Source: Candidatus Latescibacterota bacterium
GTDB taxonomy: Bacteria; JAAXHH01
DNA length: 64,000 nucleotides
Reading direction: 5' to 3'
Assembly (NCBI GenBank): GCA_022823465.1
Contig: JAJEHX010000023.1
Coordinates: forward strand, 1 to 64,000
Positions 2,566 through 43,226 of this stretch are shown here, one piece after another. The notes beneath the pieces are model-generated. The model did no database searches, was not told the DNA's origin, and saw nothing but the letters and a program-made list of their open reading frames with translations. The position numbers were made by a program, and so were the translations under genes. Numbering within the stretch: the first letter of the stretch is position 1; each line of letters opens with the position of its first letter.

Positions 2566-3519
2566 CTAGTCTTCCGTTTTTTCTGTGGAGCGCCTCGTCG
2601 CGAGATGCTCGATGACCAGTACGATCGCGCAGCCGGCGATGCCCAGGGTAATGGCCAGCAGGACTTCTTCCGACACGGCCGCGGGCAGGACGTTTTGCTC
2701 TATCAGGGGCTTCACCACACCTTGGCTGTTCGTGAACGTTTCCACCGTTTCCTTCCACGGCCAGATCTTCCGCAATGAGCCGGCCATGAGGCCGATGAGG
2801 GCCGCCACGGTCACGTCGTGGTAGCGACGTAACAGCCACCTGAGCACCCGCGCGAAGAAGATGAGCCCCAGGATGCCTCCGAATCCGAAGATCAGAATGG
2901 GCAGGAAATCGCGCTGGACCACGGCGTTGAGCATGTACTCGTACTTCCCCAGAATGACCAGGATGAAAGAACCCGAAATGCCGGGCAGGATCATCGCGCA
3001 GATGGCGATGGATCCGCTCAGGAACACGAACCACGCGGCGGAGGTCGTCTCGACAGGGACGGCGCCCACCAGTACGAAGGCCGCCGATGCCGCCAGCAGC
3101 AACGCGAGCACTTCCGTCGCGGTCCAGGCGGACACCTTGCCCCGAACGGTGATGATCGACGCGAACACCAGCCCGAAGAAAAAGGCCCACACCAGGACGG
3201 GATGGTGCGCAAGGGCCCATGCGAAAAACCGGGCCAGGCTGAAAATCGCCACCATGATGCCGGTGACGAGGGCGATCAGGAAGGGATAAGGGAAACCGGC
3301 AAGCGCTTCTTTGAACCGAAAGGTAACCAGTGCGCGAAGAAACCTTACGTTGACCGCGTGCACGGCGTCCAGCAGTTCTTCGTAAACGCCGAGGATGAAG
3401 GCCATCGTGCCCCCGGAAACGCCGGGTACGACGTCGGCGACCCCCATGCAGAATCCGCGGGCGGAGATGCCCAGGTAGTCCAGGAAAGTACGTCCCGAAC
3501 GTGAAGACTCGTTGGCCAT
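2566..3519 (-). CDS. DUF368 domain-containing multi-pass membrane protein
   Basis: [50 protein letters not shown]...LPGISGSFILVILGKYEYML, DUF368 hallmark motifs. Confidence 0.85.
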   Translation of the reverse strand: MANESSRSGRTFLDYLGISARGFCMGVADVVPGVSGGTMAFILGVYEELLDAVHAVNVRFLRALVTFRFKEALAGFPYPFLIALVTGIMVAIFSLARFFAWALAHHPVLVWAFFFGLVFASIITVRGKVSAWTATEVLALLLAASAAFVLVGAVPVETTSAAWFVFLSGSIAICAMILPGISGSFILVILGKYEYMLNAVVQRDFLPILIFGFGGILGLIFFARVLRWLLRRYHDVTVAALIGLMAGSLRKIWPWKETVETFTNSQGVVKPLIEQNVLPAAVSEEVLLAITLGIAGCAIVLVIEHLATRRSTEKTED

Positions 3520-4451
3520 TACTTGCTCCCGCGTACGTATCTGACCCTGGGATCCACGAGCGCGTAGAGAATGTCGGTAATAAGGTAGACGATACCGATC
3601 AGCACCGCTACGAGCAGCGTCAGCGCCATGATCATGGGATAGTCCCGTTCGAAGATGCTGGTGACGAAGAACTGTCCCAGTCCCGGGATGCGGAAAATGC
3701 CTTCGACGAAGAGCGACCCGGTCATCACGCCGGGCAGCATCGGCCCCATGATGGTCAGCAGGGGGATCAGGGAGTTTTTCAGCACGTGGATGAACAGGAC
3801 GCTCCGTTCCTTGAGCCCCTTTGCCCGGGCCGTGCGCACGTAATCCATGCGCAGGTTCTCGAGCACGCTCGAACGGGTGTACCGGGCGATGATGGCCATG
3901 GGACCCAGGGCGTAGACGATCACCGGCATGATCCAGGTCTCGGGTCCGCCCCATCCGCCCGTGGGCAGGACCCTCCATATGGTGGCGAAAAGGACGATGA
4001 ACAGGATGGAAATGGCGAAACTGGGCACAGTGATCCCCAGGGTGGCGAGTATCGTGGTCCCGTAATCCATCCAGGTATTCTGTTTTATGGCGGACAGGAT
4101 GCCCAGGAGGATGCCGAAGGAGAAGGCCACGGCGAGGCCCATGCCGCCCAGTTGCATGCTGATGGGCCAGGTCCGCGCAATGAGGTCCGTTACCGTCTCG
4201 CCCGGGCTCTGGAAGGGAATGCCGAAGTCGAATTGCAACGCGTTCCACATGTACCGTCCGTACTGCTCGTACAGGGGCCGGTCCAGACCGTACTTGCGCA
4301 GGATGTTGGCCTTGGCCTCGGCGGACAGAGGCATCTTCTCTTCGTCGAAGGGGCCGCCGGGCACCGCATGCATCAGGCTGAAGGTGATGATCGTGACCAG
4401 GAACAGCACGCCGACCAGGCCCAAGATGCGGTATATGATGTATCGGATCAT
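3519..4451 (-). CDS. peptide ABC transporter permease, DppB/OppB family
   Basis: [38 protein letters not shown]...[31 protein letters not shown]. Confidence 0.93.
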
Positions 4452-35772: not shown

Positions 35773-36438
35773 ATGAACCAGGTTTCTTTAAAAGCCCGTC
35801 AACGGACGGACACCGGAAAGCAGGTCGCCAAAACGCTTCGGCGGGACGGCAGCCTGCCCGCCGTGGTCTACGGTAGCGGAGAGCCCCCGACGCCGTTGAC
35901 GCTCGACTACCGCGAGTTCGAAGGGTTCCTGAGGAAGACCAGGGGCGAAAGCGTCGTCATCAACCTGGAAATCGAAGGCATGGACGACAAGAAGGCCCTG
36001 TTGCGAGACCTGCAGCGGGACTACCTGAGGAACCAGTTGCTGCACGCCGATTTCCAGCAGATCAGGATGAGCGACCAGATCACCACGGAGGTATCGCTCG
36101 TGATGATCGGCGAGCCCGTCGGCGTGACGAGAGACGGCGGGGTGCTGGACCAGTCCCTGCGGGTGATCGAAATCAGTTGCGTCGCGTCCGAAATCCCCGA
36201 GCACCTGGAAGTGGACATCAGCAATCTGAGCATGGGCGAAACGATCCATATCAGTGATCTTTCCTTCGACAACGTCGAAATCGTGACCGATGGAGAGGTC
36301 GCCGTGGTGTCTGTCCTCACGCCGATGGCCGAGGAGCCTGAGGAAGAAGAAGCAGTGGAAGAGCTGGAAGAGCCGGAAATCATCGGCCGGGCCCAGGAAG
36401 ACGGCGAGGGCGAGGAAGAAGAAGAGAACGAAGACTAA
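35773..36438 (+). CDS. rplY: 50S ribosomal protein L25 (CTC form)
   Basis: LKARQRTDTGKQVAKTLRRDGSLPAVVYGSGEPPTPLTLDYREFEGFLRK...; acidic tail; precedes pth. Confidence 0.95.
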   Translation: MNQVSLKARQRTDTGKQVAKTLRRDGSLPAVVYGSGEPPTPLTLDYREFEGFLRKTRGESVVINLEIEGMDDKKALLRDLQRDYLRNQLLHADFQQIRMSDQITTEVSLVMIGEPVGVTRDGGVLDQSLRVIEISCVASEIPEHLEVDISNLSMGETIHISDLSFDNVEIVTDGEVAVVSVLTPMAEEPEEEEAVEELEEPEIIGRAQEDGEGEEEEENED

Positions 36439-36498
36439 GGCAGCCCGGTTATGTGTCAGCATGCCGATTCCGGACCCTTGCGGCCTGAAGGTTCGTCC

Positions 36499-37074
36499 AT
36501 GCACGCCTTCATCGGTCTCGGCAACCCGGGCGTTCGCTACGCGGGCACGCGCCACAACGCCGGTTTCGACGTGATCGACACCTGGCTGCGGCGGCTCGAT
36601 CTCGAGCTTGCCCCGGTAAGTGACCGTTTTCATGGCGCCGTCGCAACGATCGCCGGTCTGCCCGTGGCGCTGGTGAAGCCGGTGACCTTCATGAACCGCA
36701 GCGGTTACGCGGTGCGGGAGGCGGCAGCACATTATGAACTCGACGTCGATCGCATCGTGGTCGTCTGCGACGACGTCAACCTGCCCTTCGGTACGCTGCG
36801 TATCAGGGCGAAGGGCAGTGATGGCGGCCACCGGGGACTGGAATCCATCATCGACGCGCTGGGAACGGAAGGATTCGCCCGCCAGCGTATCGGAGTCGAC
36901 CTCCCCCGGGACGCGGATACGCTGGTCGACTACGTGCTGGAGGCGTTTACCGAAGAGGAAGCAACCGATCTGCCCATCGTCCTCGACCGGGCCTGCGACC
37001 AGCTGGCGCTGTTCGTAAGCGACGGCTGCGGCGAGGCCGCGAGCAGGTACAACGGCCCGTCGTTCACGGACTGA
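36499..37074 (+). CDS. pth: peptidyl-tRNA hydrolase
   Basis: FIGLGNPGVRYAGTRHNAGFDVID...VKPVTFMNRSGYAV...DDVNLPFGTLRIRAKGSDGGHRGLESII. Confidence 0.97.
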   Translation: MHAFIGLGNPGVRYAGTRHNAGFDVIDTWLRRLDLELAPVSDRFHGAVATIAGLPVALVKPVTFMNRSGYAVREAAAHYELDVDRIVVVCDDVNLPFGTLRIRAKGSDGGHRGLESIIDALGTEGFARQRIGVDLPRDADTLVDYVLEAFTEEEATDLPIVLDRACDQLALFVSDGCGEAASRYNGPSFTD

Positions 37075-37115
37075 AGGGGCAATCCGGAAAGCGAACCCGC
37101 ATACAACCAGGAGGA

Positions 37116-37469
37116 ATGCACGTGCGGTCCTATGAAACAGTAGTGGTTATCGATTCCAAACTCGAAGAAGCGCCGCTCGAGGAGGAGATCTCCGCCATCG
37201 AGGGGCTCATCACGTCGAATCAGGGAGAGGTCGTCGACACGGAACGCTGGGGAAGCAGGAAGCTCAGCTACGAGATCAACGACGCCCACCATGGATTCTA
37301 CACGCTGATCCGATTCGATGGCGAACCGACCGTGGTCGACGCGCTGGACCGGTCGTTCAAGTTGAACGATCGCGTACTCCGCCACATGACGAAGCGGGTC
37401 AGGAAGCATCCGGCCCATGTATACGAAAAGGCGGAACAGGCCGAAAAGGACACAGGAGCGGAAGCATGA
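37116..37469 (+). CDS. rpsF: 30S ribosomal protein S6
   Basis: [64 protein letters not shown]. Confidence 0.96.
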
Positions 37470-37705
37470 ACCAATCCAGGACGAGGATGACCAGGACAAG
37501 AAAGCAGAAGCGCATACCGGGCCGTATCAAGAACATCGATTACAAGGACCCGAAGCAGCTCCGGCGTTTCGTTACCGAGCGGGGCAAGATCGTGCCCAGC
37601 CGCATTTCCGGCGCCAGCGCGTTGTGCCAGCGGCGCCTGGCAAAGGCCATCAAACGGGCGCGTCATATCGGCCTGCTGCCTTTCATCGAAGAAACCTACA
37701 AGTAG
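37466..37705 (+). CDS. rpsR: 30S ribosomal protein S18
   Basis: [50 protein letters not shown]. Confidence 0.97.
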
Positions 37706-37719
37706 CCGAGGAGTCGGAC

Positions 37720-38163
37720 GTGAAGCTCATATTGACCGAATCTGTGCGGGACCTGGGAAACATCGGTGAGATCGTCGACGTTTCCAACGGGTACGGCAGA
37801 AACTACCTGATGCTGACGAAAAAGGCCGTTCCGGCGACGCCCGGTAACCTGAAAATGCTTCAGGGCAAACTGAAACAGCAACTGGCCCTGGAAGCCAAGA
37901 CGGTAGAGCAGGCCTCCGAACTCGCCGGGATGCTCGAGGAAGTCTCCCTGACCGCCGTCGTGCAGGTCGGGGAAGAAGACCGCATGTTCGGTTCCGTCAC
38001 CCAGCAGCATATCGCCGACCTGCTGAAGGAAAAAGGCTACGATATCGACCGGCGCAAGATCCACCTCGACGAGCCCATCAAGGCGCTGGGGATATACACG
38101 ATTCCCATAGCGCTGCACGCCCGTGTAGAGGCCAACGTGAAGCTCTGGGTGGTCAAGGAATAG
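37720..38163 (+). CDS. rplI: 50S ribosomal protein L9
   Basis: GTG start; MKLILTESVRDLGNIGEIVDVSNGYGRNYLMLTKKAVPAT. Confidence 0.97.
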   Translation: MKLILTESVRDLGNIGEIVDVSNGYGRNYLMLTKKAVPATPGNLKMLQGKLKQQLALEAKTVEQASELAGMLEEVSLTAVVQVGEEDRMFGSVTQQHIADLLKEKGYDIDRRKIHLDEPIKALGIYTIPIALHARVEANVKLWVVKE

Positions 38164-40012: not shown

Positions 40013-41086
40013 TTGCAGATCGGCCTCGTCGGCCTGCCCGGTTCCGGGAAGACCACGTTGTTCAACGCCTTGGTGAGGGCAAATGCGGAAACCGGCGGTT
40101 ACGCGGGGCTGAACAAGGTCAACCGGGGGACGATCAGGGTTCCGGACCAGAGAGTCGACCGCCTTTCCGGCCTGTTCAATCCACGCAAGACCACTTTCGC
40201 CACTGTGGAATACCTGGACATCGGCGGTATTACGACCGGCGCAGGGCGCCAGGAGGAGCAGCAGGACGCCGGGGGACTGGGCGACCTGCGCAACATGGAT
40301 CTGCTGGTCCACGTGCTCCGGGGGTTTCCGGACCTGGCCGACGCGCCTATAACGCCTTCGGACGATTTCGAGACAGTGGAGCTGGAACTCGCCATCGCCG
40401 ATCTGGAGATTATCGAGCGCCGGCTGTCACGCCTTTCCAAGGAGGCGCGGTCCACGAAGCGGCCGGATCTGGTCCGCGAATGGCAACTGCTCGAACGCTG
40501 CAAGGAGGAAATCGAAGGCGGCGGTGTCATCCGGAACCTCGAATTTGATCCGGAAGACGAGAAAAGGCTTAGAGGCTACCGGTTCCTGTCGCAGAAACCG
40601 GCGCTCCTCGTGCTGAATATCCGCGAGGAAGACCTGGGCTCGGAAGCGCAGCGGCTTGCGGCACTGGGTGAATGTGCCGATGGGCTGGACGCATTGGCGC
40701 TCTGCGCGAAGGTCGAAATGGAGATCGCCCAGCTCGAAGAGGACGACGCGGATGCCTTCCTGGAGGATCTGGGCATCCGGGAATCCGCCCTGAACCGCAT
40801 GATCATCGCCTCGTACAGGCTGCTTAACCTGATTTCCTTCTTCACCGTTGGAGAGGATGAAGTAAAGGCATGGACCGTCGCGCGCGGCGTCACGGCGCCG
40901 GAAGCGGCCGGGACGATACACTCCGACCTGGAACGGGGGTTCATCCGGGCCGAAACGCTGGAGTGGGAATCTCTGCTCGATCTCGGGGGATGGCAGGCGG
41001 CGAAGGAGAAGGGCGTGCTGCGCGTCGAAGGCAAACAGTACGTCGTCCAGGACGGCGACGTGATCAACGTGCGATTTAACGTCTGA
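40013..41086 (+). CDS. ychF: redox-regulated ATPase YchF
   Basis: IGLVGLPGSGKTTLFNAL...PDQRVDRLSGLFNPRKTTFATVEYLDIGG...LRNMDLLVHVLRGF...FFTVGEDEVKAWTVARGVTAPEAAGTIHSDLERGFIRAE. Confidence 0.95.
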   Translation: MQIGLVGLPGSGKTTLFNALVRANAETGGYAGLNKVNRGTIRVPDQRVDRLSGLFNPRKTTFATVEYLDIGGITTGAGRQEEQQDAGGLGDLRNMDLLVHVLRGFPDLADAPITPSDDFETVELELAIADLEIIERRLSRLSKEARSTKRPDLVREWQLLERCKEEIEGGGVIRNLEFDPEDEKRLRGYRFLSQKPALLVLNIREEDLGSEAQRLAALGECADGLDALALCAKVEMEIAQLEEDDADAFLEDLGIRESALNRMIIASYRLLNLISFFTVGEDEVKAWTVARGVTAPEAAGTIHSDLERGFIRAETLEWESLLDLGGWQAAKEKGVLRVEGKQYVVQDGDVINVRFNV

Positions 41087-41161
41087 TAGAACCAGATTCA
41101 CAAGTTGAAGATTTCGCTTGTCAACCTGCAGGCAGTGTCGATATCATAGATTACCCTTTCG

Positions 41162-41213: not shown

Positions 41214-41792
41214 ATGAAAACCAGAAACCACCTGATGACCGCGTTGCTTCTCGCCGGAGGGCTGCTGTGGTCTTCTCCAGTCGGCGCCCAGCTCGGCGCC
41301 AACGCCGGCTTCAATCCTGAACCGCTCAGCCTTGTGGATTTCAAGAAGGCGTTCAACGGCGATACGGGCAAAATTCGCCTCGTCGTGATGTTCTCGCCTA
41401 CATGAGGCCACTGCATAAGCGGCGCCGGGGCGGTGCAGCAAGAAATACTGAAGCGGTTTCCCTCAGACGACCTCCGGGTCTACGTGGTCTGGCAGCGGAT
41501 ACTCAGGAACGACGCGGTTAATGCGGCTCGTACCGCGGCCGTCAATGTGTTCGACGACGATAAGCGTGTCAGCCAGATGTGGGACCCCGCGAACGCGCTG
41601 GGATTCTGGTACAAGAAGTCGGGTGAACTGGAACACAAGGACCCCATGGTCTGGGACGCCTACTTCCTCTACGGCGCGGATGCCGAATGGAAGGACGCGC
41701 CTACCGGACTGATCGACGCCGGTTACACGGTGTGGAATATGAAAGACAGGCTCTTGAAATCGGTGGCGACCACGATGGAGACCGTGGACTGA
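41214..41792 (+). CDS. candidate secreted thioredoxin-like selenoprotein (in-frame TGA at 41403-41405 in UxxC position)
   Basis: MKTRNHLMTALLLAGGLLWSSPVGAQ (signal peptide)...GKIRLVVMFSPT-[TGA]-GHCISGAGAVQQEILKRFPSDDLRVYVVWQRILRNDAVNAARTAAVNVFDDDKRVSQMWDPANALGFWYKKS...; both halves in the same frame. Confidence 0.75.
41403..41438 (+). promoter_or_regulatory. possible bacterial SECIS-like hairpin just 3' of the TGA
   Basis: CACTGC (41409-41414) pairs with GCGGTG (41430-41435); alternative CTGCA/TGCAG (41411-41415/41434-41438). Confidence 0.4.
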
Positions 41793-41804: not shown

Positions 41805-43226
41805 TCACCCCTCCAGGCTGAGGAGGAAGGGTTCCTCGAAGGCCTGTACAAGCCACTGCATGAAGCGGGCGCCGTCCGCGCCGTCTATGACTCTGTGATC
41901 GTAGGAGAGCATCAGCGGAAGCATGAGGCGCGGCTGGAACGCGCCGTCCACGTAAACCTGTTCCATGCGGCTTCGCGCCAATCCAAGGATGGCCACGTCC
42001 GGCGCGTTCACGATCGGCGCGAAGAAGGTCCCGCCGAACCCGCCCAGGTTCGAGATCGTAAACGTACTCCCCTGCATATCGTCCGGTGAGAGCTTCCTGT
42101 CCCGTGCCTTCGCGGCGACTTCGGACAACTCGACGGACAACTCGACCATGTTTTTCCGGTCCACGTCCCGGATGACCGGCACGACCAGGCCGCGGTCCGT
42201 GTCGACCGCCACGCCCACGTGGTAGTATTTCTTGTAGATGATCTCGTGCCGGGCCATGTCGACGCTTGCGTTGAACAGGGGAAACCGCTTGAGCGCCGCG
42301 GCCACGATTTTCAGGGCGATGGCCGTCATGGTCAGCTTGCCGCCGGCGGCTTCCGCCGCGGGGCCAAACTGCTTTCGCAGGGCTTCCATGTCTGTGACGT
42401 CGGCCTTGTCGCCATAGGTGACATGGGGGATGTTCGTCCACGCCGCGCTTAAGTGCTCCGCGGCGGCCCGGCGTAGATTGCTCATGGACTCGGTTTCCAC
42501 CGGACCCCATTTCGTGAAGTCCGGCAGCGGAGCCGAAGGTGCGGATGGCCTGGGACCGGCCGCCGAGCCCCGGCCGGCGCTCAGGTCCCTGGAATGGGTC
42601 TTTACGTCTTCGACGGATATCCGCCCTCCCGGACCGGTTCCGGGCACCTGGCCGATATCTAGTCCGATCTCGCGGGCGAATCGGCGCACGGACGGAGCGG
42701 CCGGCACAGGTTCCCCGCCGGTTGTAGCCGGAACAGTCGTTGGCGGCGATGAAGACGGAGCAGGTGGCGCGGGCGGGGTTTCCCTCGAGGGAGACGGGAC
42801 CTCCGAACCGGTTGCCGCCTTTTGATCCGGTGCTGCGGATGCGCCCGGATCCGCCTCCCCCGAGGCGGTTTCCTGAGCGGAAGGCTCCGTGACGGCCGTG
42901 TCCGGTGCCTCGGAAGCCGCTGCCCCGGAGGCCGGCGCCGCATCCGCGGCCGGTTCTTCCGCCTCCTTGCCGGCGGCTGCCTCGGCGCCCGCTTCTTCAT
43001 ACATGAGCACGGGAGCGCCCACTTCGGCCGTCGCGCCATTCTCCACGAGGATCTCGGTGACCACGCCGCTGAATCCCGACGGCACCTCCAGGTTGGCCTT
43101 GTCGGTCTCGATCTCCAGGACGGGTTGATTGACTTCGACCCTGTCCCCCACCGCGACCAGGATACCCACCACGGTCCCGTCGTCTATGTTCTCGCCAAGG
43201 GCTGGAAGATTGAAAGGCGTCGCCAT
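41805..43226 (-). CDS. aceF: pyruvate dehydrogenase E2 (dihydrolipoamide acetyltransferase), one lipoyl domain
   Basis: lipoyl site VLEIETDKANLEVPSG; Ala/Pro linker; E3-binding VRRFAREIGLDIGQVPGTGPGGRISVEDV; catalytic LPLMLSYDHRVIDGADGARFM. Confidence 0.95.
   Translation of the reverse strand: MATPFNLPALGENIDDGTVVGILVAVGDRVEVNQPVLEIETDKANLEVPSGFSGVVTEILVENGATAEVGAPVLMYEEAGAEAAAGKEAEEPAADAAPASGAAASEAPDTAVTEPSAQETASGEADPGASAAPDQKAATGSEVPSPSRETPPAPPAPSSSPPTTVPATTGGEPVPAAPSVRRFAREIGLDIGQVPGTGPGGRISVEDVKTHSRDLSAGRGSAAGPRPSAPSAPLPDFTKWGPVETESMSNLRRAAAEHLSAAWTNIPHVTYGDKADVTDMEALRKQFGPAAEAAGGKLTMTAIALKIVAAALKRFPLFNASVDMARHEIIYKKYYHVGVAVDTDRGLVVPVIRDVDRKNMVELSVELSEVAAKARDRKLSPDDMQGSTFTISNLGGFGGTFFAPIVNAPDVAILGLARSRMEQVYVDGAFQPRLMLPLMLSYDHRVIDGADGARFMQWLVQAFEEPFLLSLEG

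Follow-up and report, generated by a model that had tools for sequence, protein, structure and literature searches.

Within the window (the whole stretch of 64,000 nucleotides that was analysed), a single reading frame runs from an ATG at 41214 to a TGA stop at 41790-41792 and is interrupted only once, by an in-frame TGA at 41403-41405 (Table 1). Read through this codon, the frame gives a joined protein of 192 residues, U64xxC67: MKTRNHLMTALLLAGGLLWSSPVGAQ...RLVVMFSPT-U-GHC...WDAYFLYG.... The initial annotation had described two open reading frames in one frame, split only by this TGA, which was confirmed on re-reading the sequence; the start that it gave at 41118 belongs to a mechanically called TTG ORF, and the homologues favour the ATG at or near 41214, the frame itself being real. 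The downstream half was also correctly described as lacking a good start of its own, as its sole start codon is an internal GTG at 41433. The six frames of the window contain 29 TGA-bridged frames that are as long as this one or longer, and in such a GC-rich stretch openness alone is therefore weak evidence, so that conservation carries the case.

The gene stands alone, with a ychF-type gene on one side and a convergent 2-oxoacid dehydrogenase E2 gene on the other. Further upstream, the gene order L25-pth-rpsF-rplI (35773-38163) is common to the window and Pyrinomonadaceae (L044/L048). Isolate names and papers on sponge Latescibacterota suggest that this Latescibacterota genus is sponge-associated.

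Table 1. Features of the locus, with positions in the window
Feature	Position	Strand	Basis or remark
Candidate selenoprotein gene, uncatalogued thioredoxin-like UxxC family	41214..41792	+	192 codons plus stop TGA 41790-41792
Probable signal peptide, residues 1-25, VGA/QL	41214..41288	+	Sequence inspection
In-frame TGA, putatively read as Sec (U64 of UxxC)	41403..41405	+	Codon kept across genus and phyla; Cys homologues
Cys67, putative resolving Cys of UxxC	41412..41414	+	Invariant in 24-row alignment
Putative SECIS minihelix GCGCC-GGGGC-GGUGC	41422..41436	+	Stem 41422-41426/41432-41436, loop 41427-41431
Invariant WDAY motif, before central strand	41652..41663	+	Alignment and predicted structure
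Upstream neighbour, YchF-type GTPase	40013..41086	+	By inspection; position also kept in related genomes
Convergent downstream neighbour, 2-oxoacid dehydrogenase E2	41805..43226	-	By inspection; outside the system

Conservation and decoding of the in-frame TGA

The gene is present in 12/12 genomes of the genus, the other 11 copies at 77-90% identity, and every copy contains exactly one internal stop, always TGA and always at the same codon, with no frameshifts. TGA occupies this codon also in a second genus of the family (L028, 45%) and in another phylum (L029, 40%), and it stands at the aligned codon in members from Acidobacteriota, Chloroflexota, Actinomycetota, and Nitrospinota. Scanning a single genome for each species extended the family to Pyrinomonadaceae, Rubrobacteraceae, Nitrospinota, Chloroflexota, and other Acidobacteriota, with the aligned TGA in all copies that have the N-terminal half except L054, which has Cys. 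In profile searches, 12/399 Chloroflexota genomes matched, two of these 12 matches (E about 1e-4) resembling ordinary CxxC thioredoxins, and 45/347 Acidobacteriota genomes gave 50 matches, of which 38 have TGA as their sole kind of stop, 11 are free of stops, and a weak one has TAA, the position of the site having been inspected in 14 loci of the 50. A search of PLSDB plasmids for the family gave no match. Within the genus, dN/dS amounts to 0.15 over the 40 codons that precede the TGA and to 0.20 over the part that follows, purifying selection acts on both halves, and the first eight codons after the TGA show zero synonymous change.

Homologues with Cys in place of the TGA were found at four loci (L054, L065, L089, and L090). 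A tree of 40 rows, 36 with Sec and four with Cys, groups the genus with L028 in a supported clade (98/96). Most rows have Sec, and the four with Cys are rare exceptions on separate branches, so Sec and Cys have probably been exchanged more than once; the deep branches of this tree are weakly supported and give no direction for the exchange.

In 22 distinct sequences, a stem of 5 bp and a loop of 5 nt lie at a fixed 19-33 nt from the U of the UGA, and 97.3% of the stem cells pair versus 24-58% when the partner is slid. Both sides of the stem are changed in six cells (shuffle mean 0.8), and compensatory changes occur across phyla, the main ones being third-position swaps (Gly GGC with Val GTG, GGG with GTC, and GGT with GTA), which keep the base pair and leave the protein unchanged. 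Bacterial SECIS elements are described as having a stem of 4-16 bp, a loop of 3-9 nt with G in its first two positions, a distance of 16-37 nt from the UGA, and an MFE of at most -7.5 (PMC13188914), and the minihelix in the window lies within all four ranges, with 5 bp, a 5-nt loop beginning with GG, a spacing of 21 nt, and -12.0 kcal/mol for a fold of 40 nt. The stem appears in this 40-nt fold and is absent from the MFE structure of a 56-nt single-sequence fold. Compared with shuffled GC-rich sequence, its stability shows no excess (z +0.8); the energy is thus ordinary for the composition, and the support rests on covariation. An Rfam search at the site matched no bacterial SECIS family. RF00031, the eukaryotic SECIS, had no match anywhere, controls included, and is hence uninformative.

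The window genome contains selA (491.8 bits), selB (350 bits), and selD (254 bits), all above curated cut-offs, and a tRNA-Sec gene, found by ARAGORN and by Rfam RF01852 (70.6 bits), which is located directly downstream of selB. Nearly all carriers tested have selB, selA, or both above cut-off, the exceptions being G087, with neither, and G146, with only a piece of selA (70 bits). The G087 genome is 97% complete and has on contig 46 a TGA-form gene (L029) that is 85% identical to L046; the lack of both sel genes above cut-off there may reflect contigs that are missing, misbinning, or a gene that is dead. A second selA-like gene (182 bits) and a selD-like gene (101 bits), adjacent to each other and below the family cut-offs, were observed in G000 (contig C51:53377-56632).

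The initial annotation had taken the TGA for a Sec codon and not a nonsense mutation, a reading for which the conserved TGA, the selection on both halves, the covariation of the SECIS, and the Sec genes all argue, and UGA 41403 is almost certainly decoded as Sec. SelB and tRNA-Sec would read it under the control of the minihelix within the coding region, yielding a product of 192 residues whose thioredoxin-like fold would hold a UxxC active site. It is very improbable that the TGA is instead a true stop followed by a separate gene, or that it encodes Trp or another residue through a variant code or leaky readthrough. TGA codons are generally known to be read through at times, and the normal stop of this gene is itself a TGA; against this, the downstream half would begin inside the predicted thioredoxin fold, TGA terminates other genes here (YchF and this gene), the homologues show Cys and never Trp at the site, and the SECIS covaries beside a complete Sec machinery. 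A pseudogene, in which a nonsense mutation or an error of sequencing would have put the TGA into a Cys gene, is allowed by a reading of this single genome with its 29 similar frames, and decay does occur in the family (G013). It can practically be dismissed, given that independently assembled genomes of 12 genus members and of several phyla share the same TGA, that the genus shows no frameshifts, and that dN/dS is 0.20 downstream. The relatives within the genus show no random disruption, and the sole broken copy belongs to another genus of the same family (G013, locus L030/L055), where only a C-terminal half is left after ychF in what is apparently a decayed copy.

Predicted fold and status of the family

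An AlphaFold2 model from a 24-row alignment (pLDDT 87, pTM 0.80, with residues 41-190 at 93-98) and Foldseek agree with the thioredoxin-like fold that had been proposed from the order of strands and helix, a fold that sequence profiles do not detect. The best Foldseek matches are of the TlpA, ResA, CcmG, DsbE, GPx, and AhpC types (E about 1e-5 to 1e-3), and with modest TM-scores of 0.39-0.53 by query length the fold match names no substrate. The domain is thus confidently predicted to be thioredoxin-like, without a close match to any solved family. It has the beta-alpha order in the model, with UxxC opening the first long helix, and six positions are invariant in the alignment when U and C are counted as one (U64, C67, W147, D148, A149, and Y150). 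There is no conserved Pro at the cis-Pro place; W147-D148 stands just ahead of strand 149-153 in the predicted structure and, judging from the strand order, WD appears to occupy the place of the thioredoxin cis-Pro.

The signal peptide that had been noted ahead of the domain is, on inspection, probable for residues 1-25. N-termini differ among members by the same kind of inspection, with a signal peptide in this genus, a TM anchor or a lipobox in others, and none of these in Nitrospinota.

Sequence profiles from Pfam, NCBIfam, and PDB gave no family over the domain; a single member only touches NF041057 (E 0.036), and a search of the window genome with NF041057 gave no match. The prokaryotic selenoprotein catalogue of 2026 comprises 119 families (PMC13188914), and none of its entries is recognisable as this one. 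The family is new relative to Pfam, NCBIfam release 20.0, and that catalogue; the NF models from the work of Haft and Gwadz (2023) and Haft and Tolstoy (2025) on selenoprotein neighbourhoods, which PMC13188914 lists, should be part of the NCBIfam release searched.

Gene context and possible substrates

In several other lineages, the family gene is located among mercury genes. For example, in L053 (Anaerolineales) it follows genes for MerB, MerA, MerB, MerR, and a CopZ-domain protein; in G494/L070, MerR, a Sec paralogue, MerA, a membrane protein, and a second Sec paralogue are encoded on one strand; and in G385/L071 the order is HMA-MerA, MerE, CcdA-like protein, and selenoprotein. Similarly, L046 (Nitrospinota) encodes a MerT-like protein, a Sec-containing MerP-like protein (UxxU), and the selenoprotein. 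In Acidobacteriota, the domain is itself fused to mercury-related domains, as MerT is followed by a Sec domain-HMA fusion in L085 and MerT-HMA by an HMA-Sec domain fusion in L087, while L089 combines MerR, a fusion of MerT with the Cys domain, and a MerA-type reductase, and L094 has MerR and MerC. A CcdA/DsbD-like membrane protein adjoins the family gene in Rubrobacteraceae and several Chloroflexota (L045 and L075 by Pfam; L049, L071, and L073 by motif, by eye). No mer genes are among the neighbours of the window gene, and no MerA above cut-off was found in the window genome (best 300 of 454 bits).

Other Sec genes accompany the family at some of these loci. Directly upstream of the family gene in L029 and L046, beside a MerT-like gene, lies a MerP-like gene that has TGA twice in frame (GMVUGAUP) and the best match of which is NF041115 (UxxU metal-binding); in L029 there is in addition an ORF resembling glutaredoxin, with SSPT-TGA-SSC, and the Nitrospinota mercury locus thus brings several neighbouring Sec genes together. 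In L045 (Rubrobacteraceae), a small Cys-type DF family (seleno)protein (NF049942, 102.5 bits, 3235-3537) adjoins the family gene directly downstream; it belongs to a different family and is a neighbour, not a homologue.

Leaving any mercury role aside, it is very probable that the gene encodes a Sec-decoded thioredoxin-like oxidoreductase, and it is likely that this acts as an extracytoplasmic thiol/selenol oxidoreductase. The protein would be exported and may be held reduced from across the membrane, as many relatives adjoin a CcdA/DsbD-like protein, and its selenol-thiol pair would act on soft-metal or oxidised-thiol substrates by reducing or capturing them. For the family, the likeliest substrate chemistry would be that of mercury, as Hg(II) or organomercurial-thiol adducts, given the placement of relatives within mer operons and their fusions to MerT and HMA (MerP-type) domains. 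A mercury- or metal-linked substrate is the favoured possibility for the family as a whole, where the gene context supports it well, and a tentative one for this genus, where the gene stands alone and we infer its role.

The same selenoprotein could instead be a general extracytoplasmic disulfide reductase of the TlpA/ResA/CcmG kind, serving for instance in cytochrome maturation and having no mercury link in this genus, and this is a serious contender that falls somewhat short of an even chance. ResA, CcmG, and DsbE are among the best Foldseek matches, the CcdA/DsbD-like neighbours suit a reductive relay, and the copies of the window, Pyrinomonadaceae, and Zixiibacteriota have no adjoining mer genes; the repeated placement in mer operons and the MerT and HMA fusions of other lineages speak against it, as does the invariant WDAY that seems to replace the usual cis-Pro region. 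A selenol peroxidase of the GPx/Prx type, which the matches to GPx5, GPX4, Bcp, and AhpC would permit, is unlikely, since the motif here is UxxC, whereas GPx-like selenoproteins have UxxT (PMC13188914), and the gene context is one of metal and DsbD rather than peroxide defence. The fuller proposal, a mostly Sec-based thioredoxin-fold mercury-resistance module that would be new to science and extracytoplasmic (selenol reductase or mercury-transfer domain) and would be fed by CcdA/DsbD and pass metal to MerT/MerP/MerA, with stand-alone detoxification in some lineages such as the sponge-symbiont Latescibacterota, is evenly poised.

Relation to known systems

The proposed family would add one more to the 119 catalogued for prokaryotes. 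It occurs widely in phyla that are poorly cultured, current models miss it, and the C-terminal halves of its genes are open to mis-annotation as start-less hypothetical proteins. Its common Sec and rare Cys forms touch a weak spot of search methods that need Cys homologues, a weakness that the authors of one such method state for their own (PMC12013277). The link to mer operons and the MerT/HMA fusions suggest selenol chemistry in natural mercury detoxification.

The family resembles the known thioredoxin-like UxxC selenoproteins, including Trx, Prx-like thiol:disulfide oxidoreductase, and thiol:disulfide interchange protein as well as DsbG-like NF041057, GOS_C NF045500, and SaoT NF040730, in its thioredoxin-like fold and in having Sec first in CxxC, and some of these known proteins are exported; unlike them, the new domain brings none of its members to a match with a Pfam or NCBIfam family. 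It shares with the Sec MerT/CopZ fusion NF045683, with NF041115 (MerP type), and with the MerB-like SaoL the occurrence of Sec in mercury-handling proteins and the same type of operon, but these are transport, HMA, or lyase proteins, whereas the new family has a thioredoxin-fold domain, no description of which in mer operons was found in the accessible literature. With TlpA, ResA, CcmG, and DsbE it has in common the predicted overall fold, probable export, a CxxC-type site, and a CcdA/DsbD partner in several genomes, and it differs from them in having no detectable sequence similarity, Sec in place of Cys, and a conserved WDAYxLY after the central loop.
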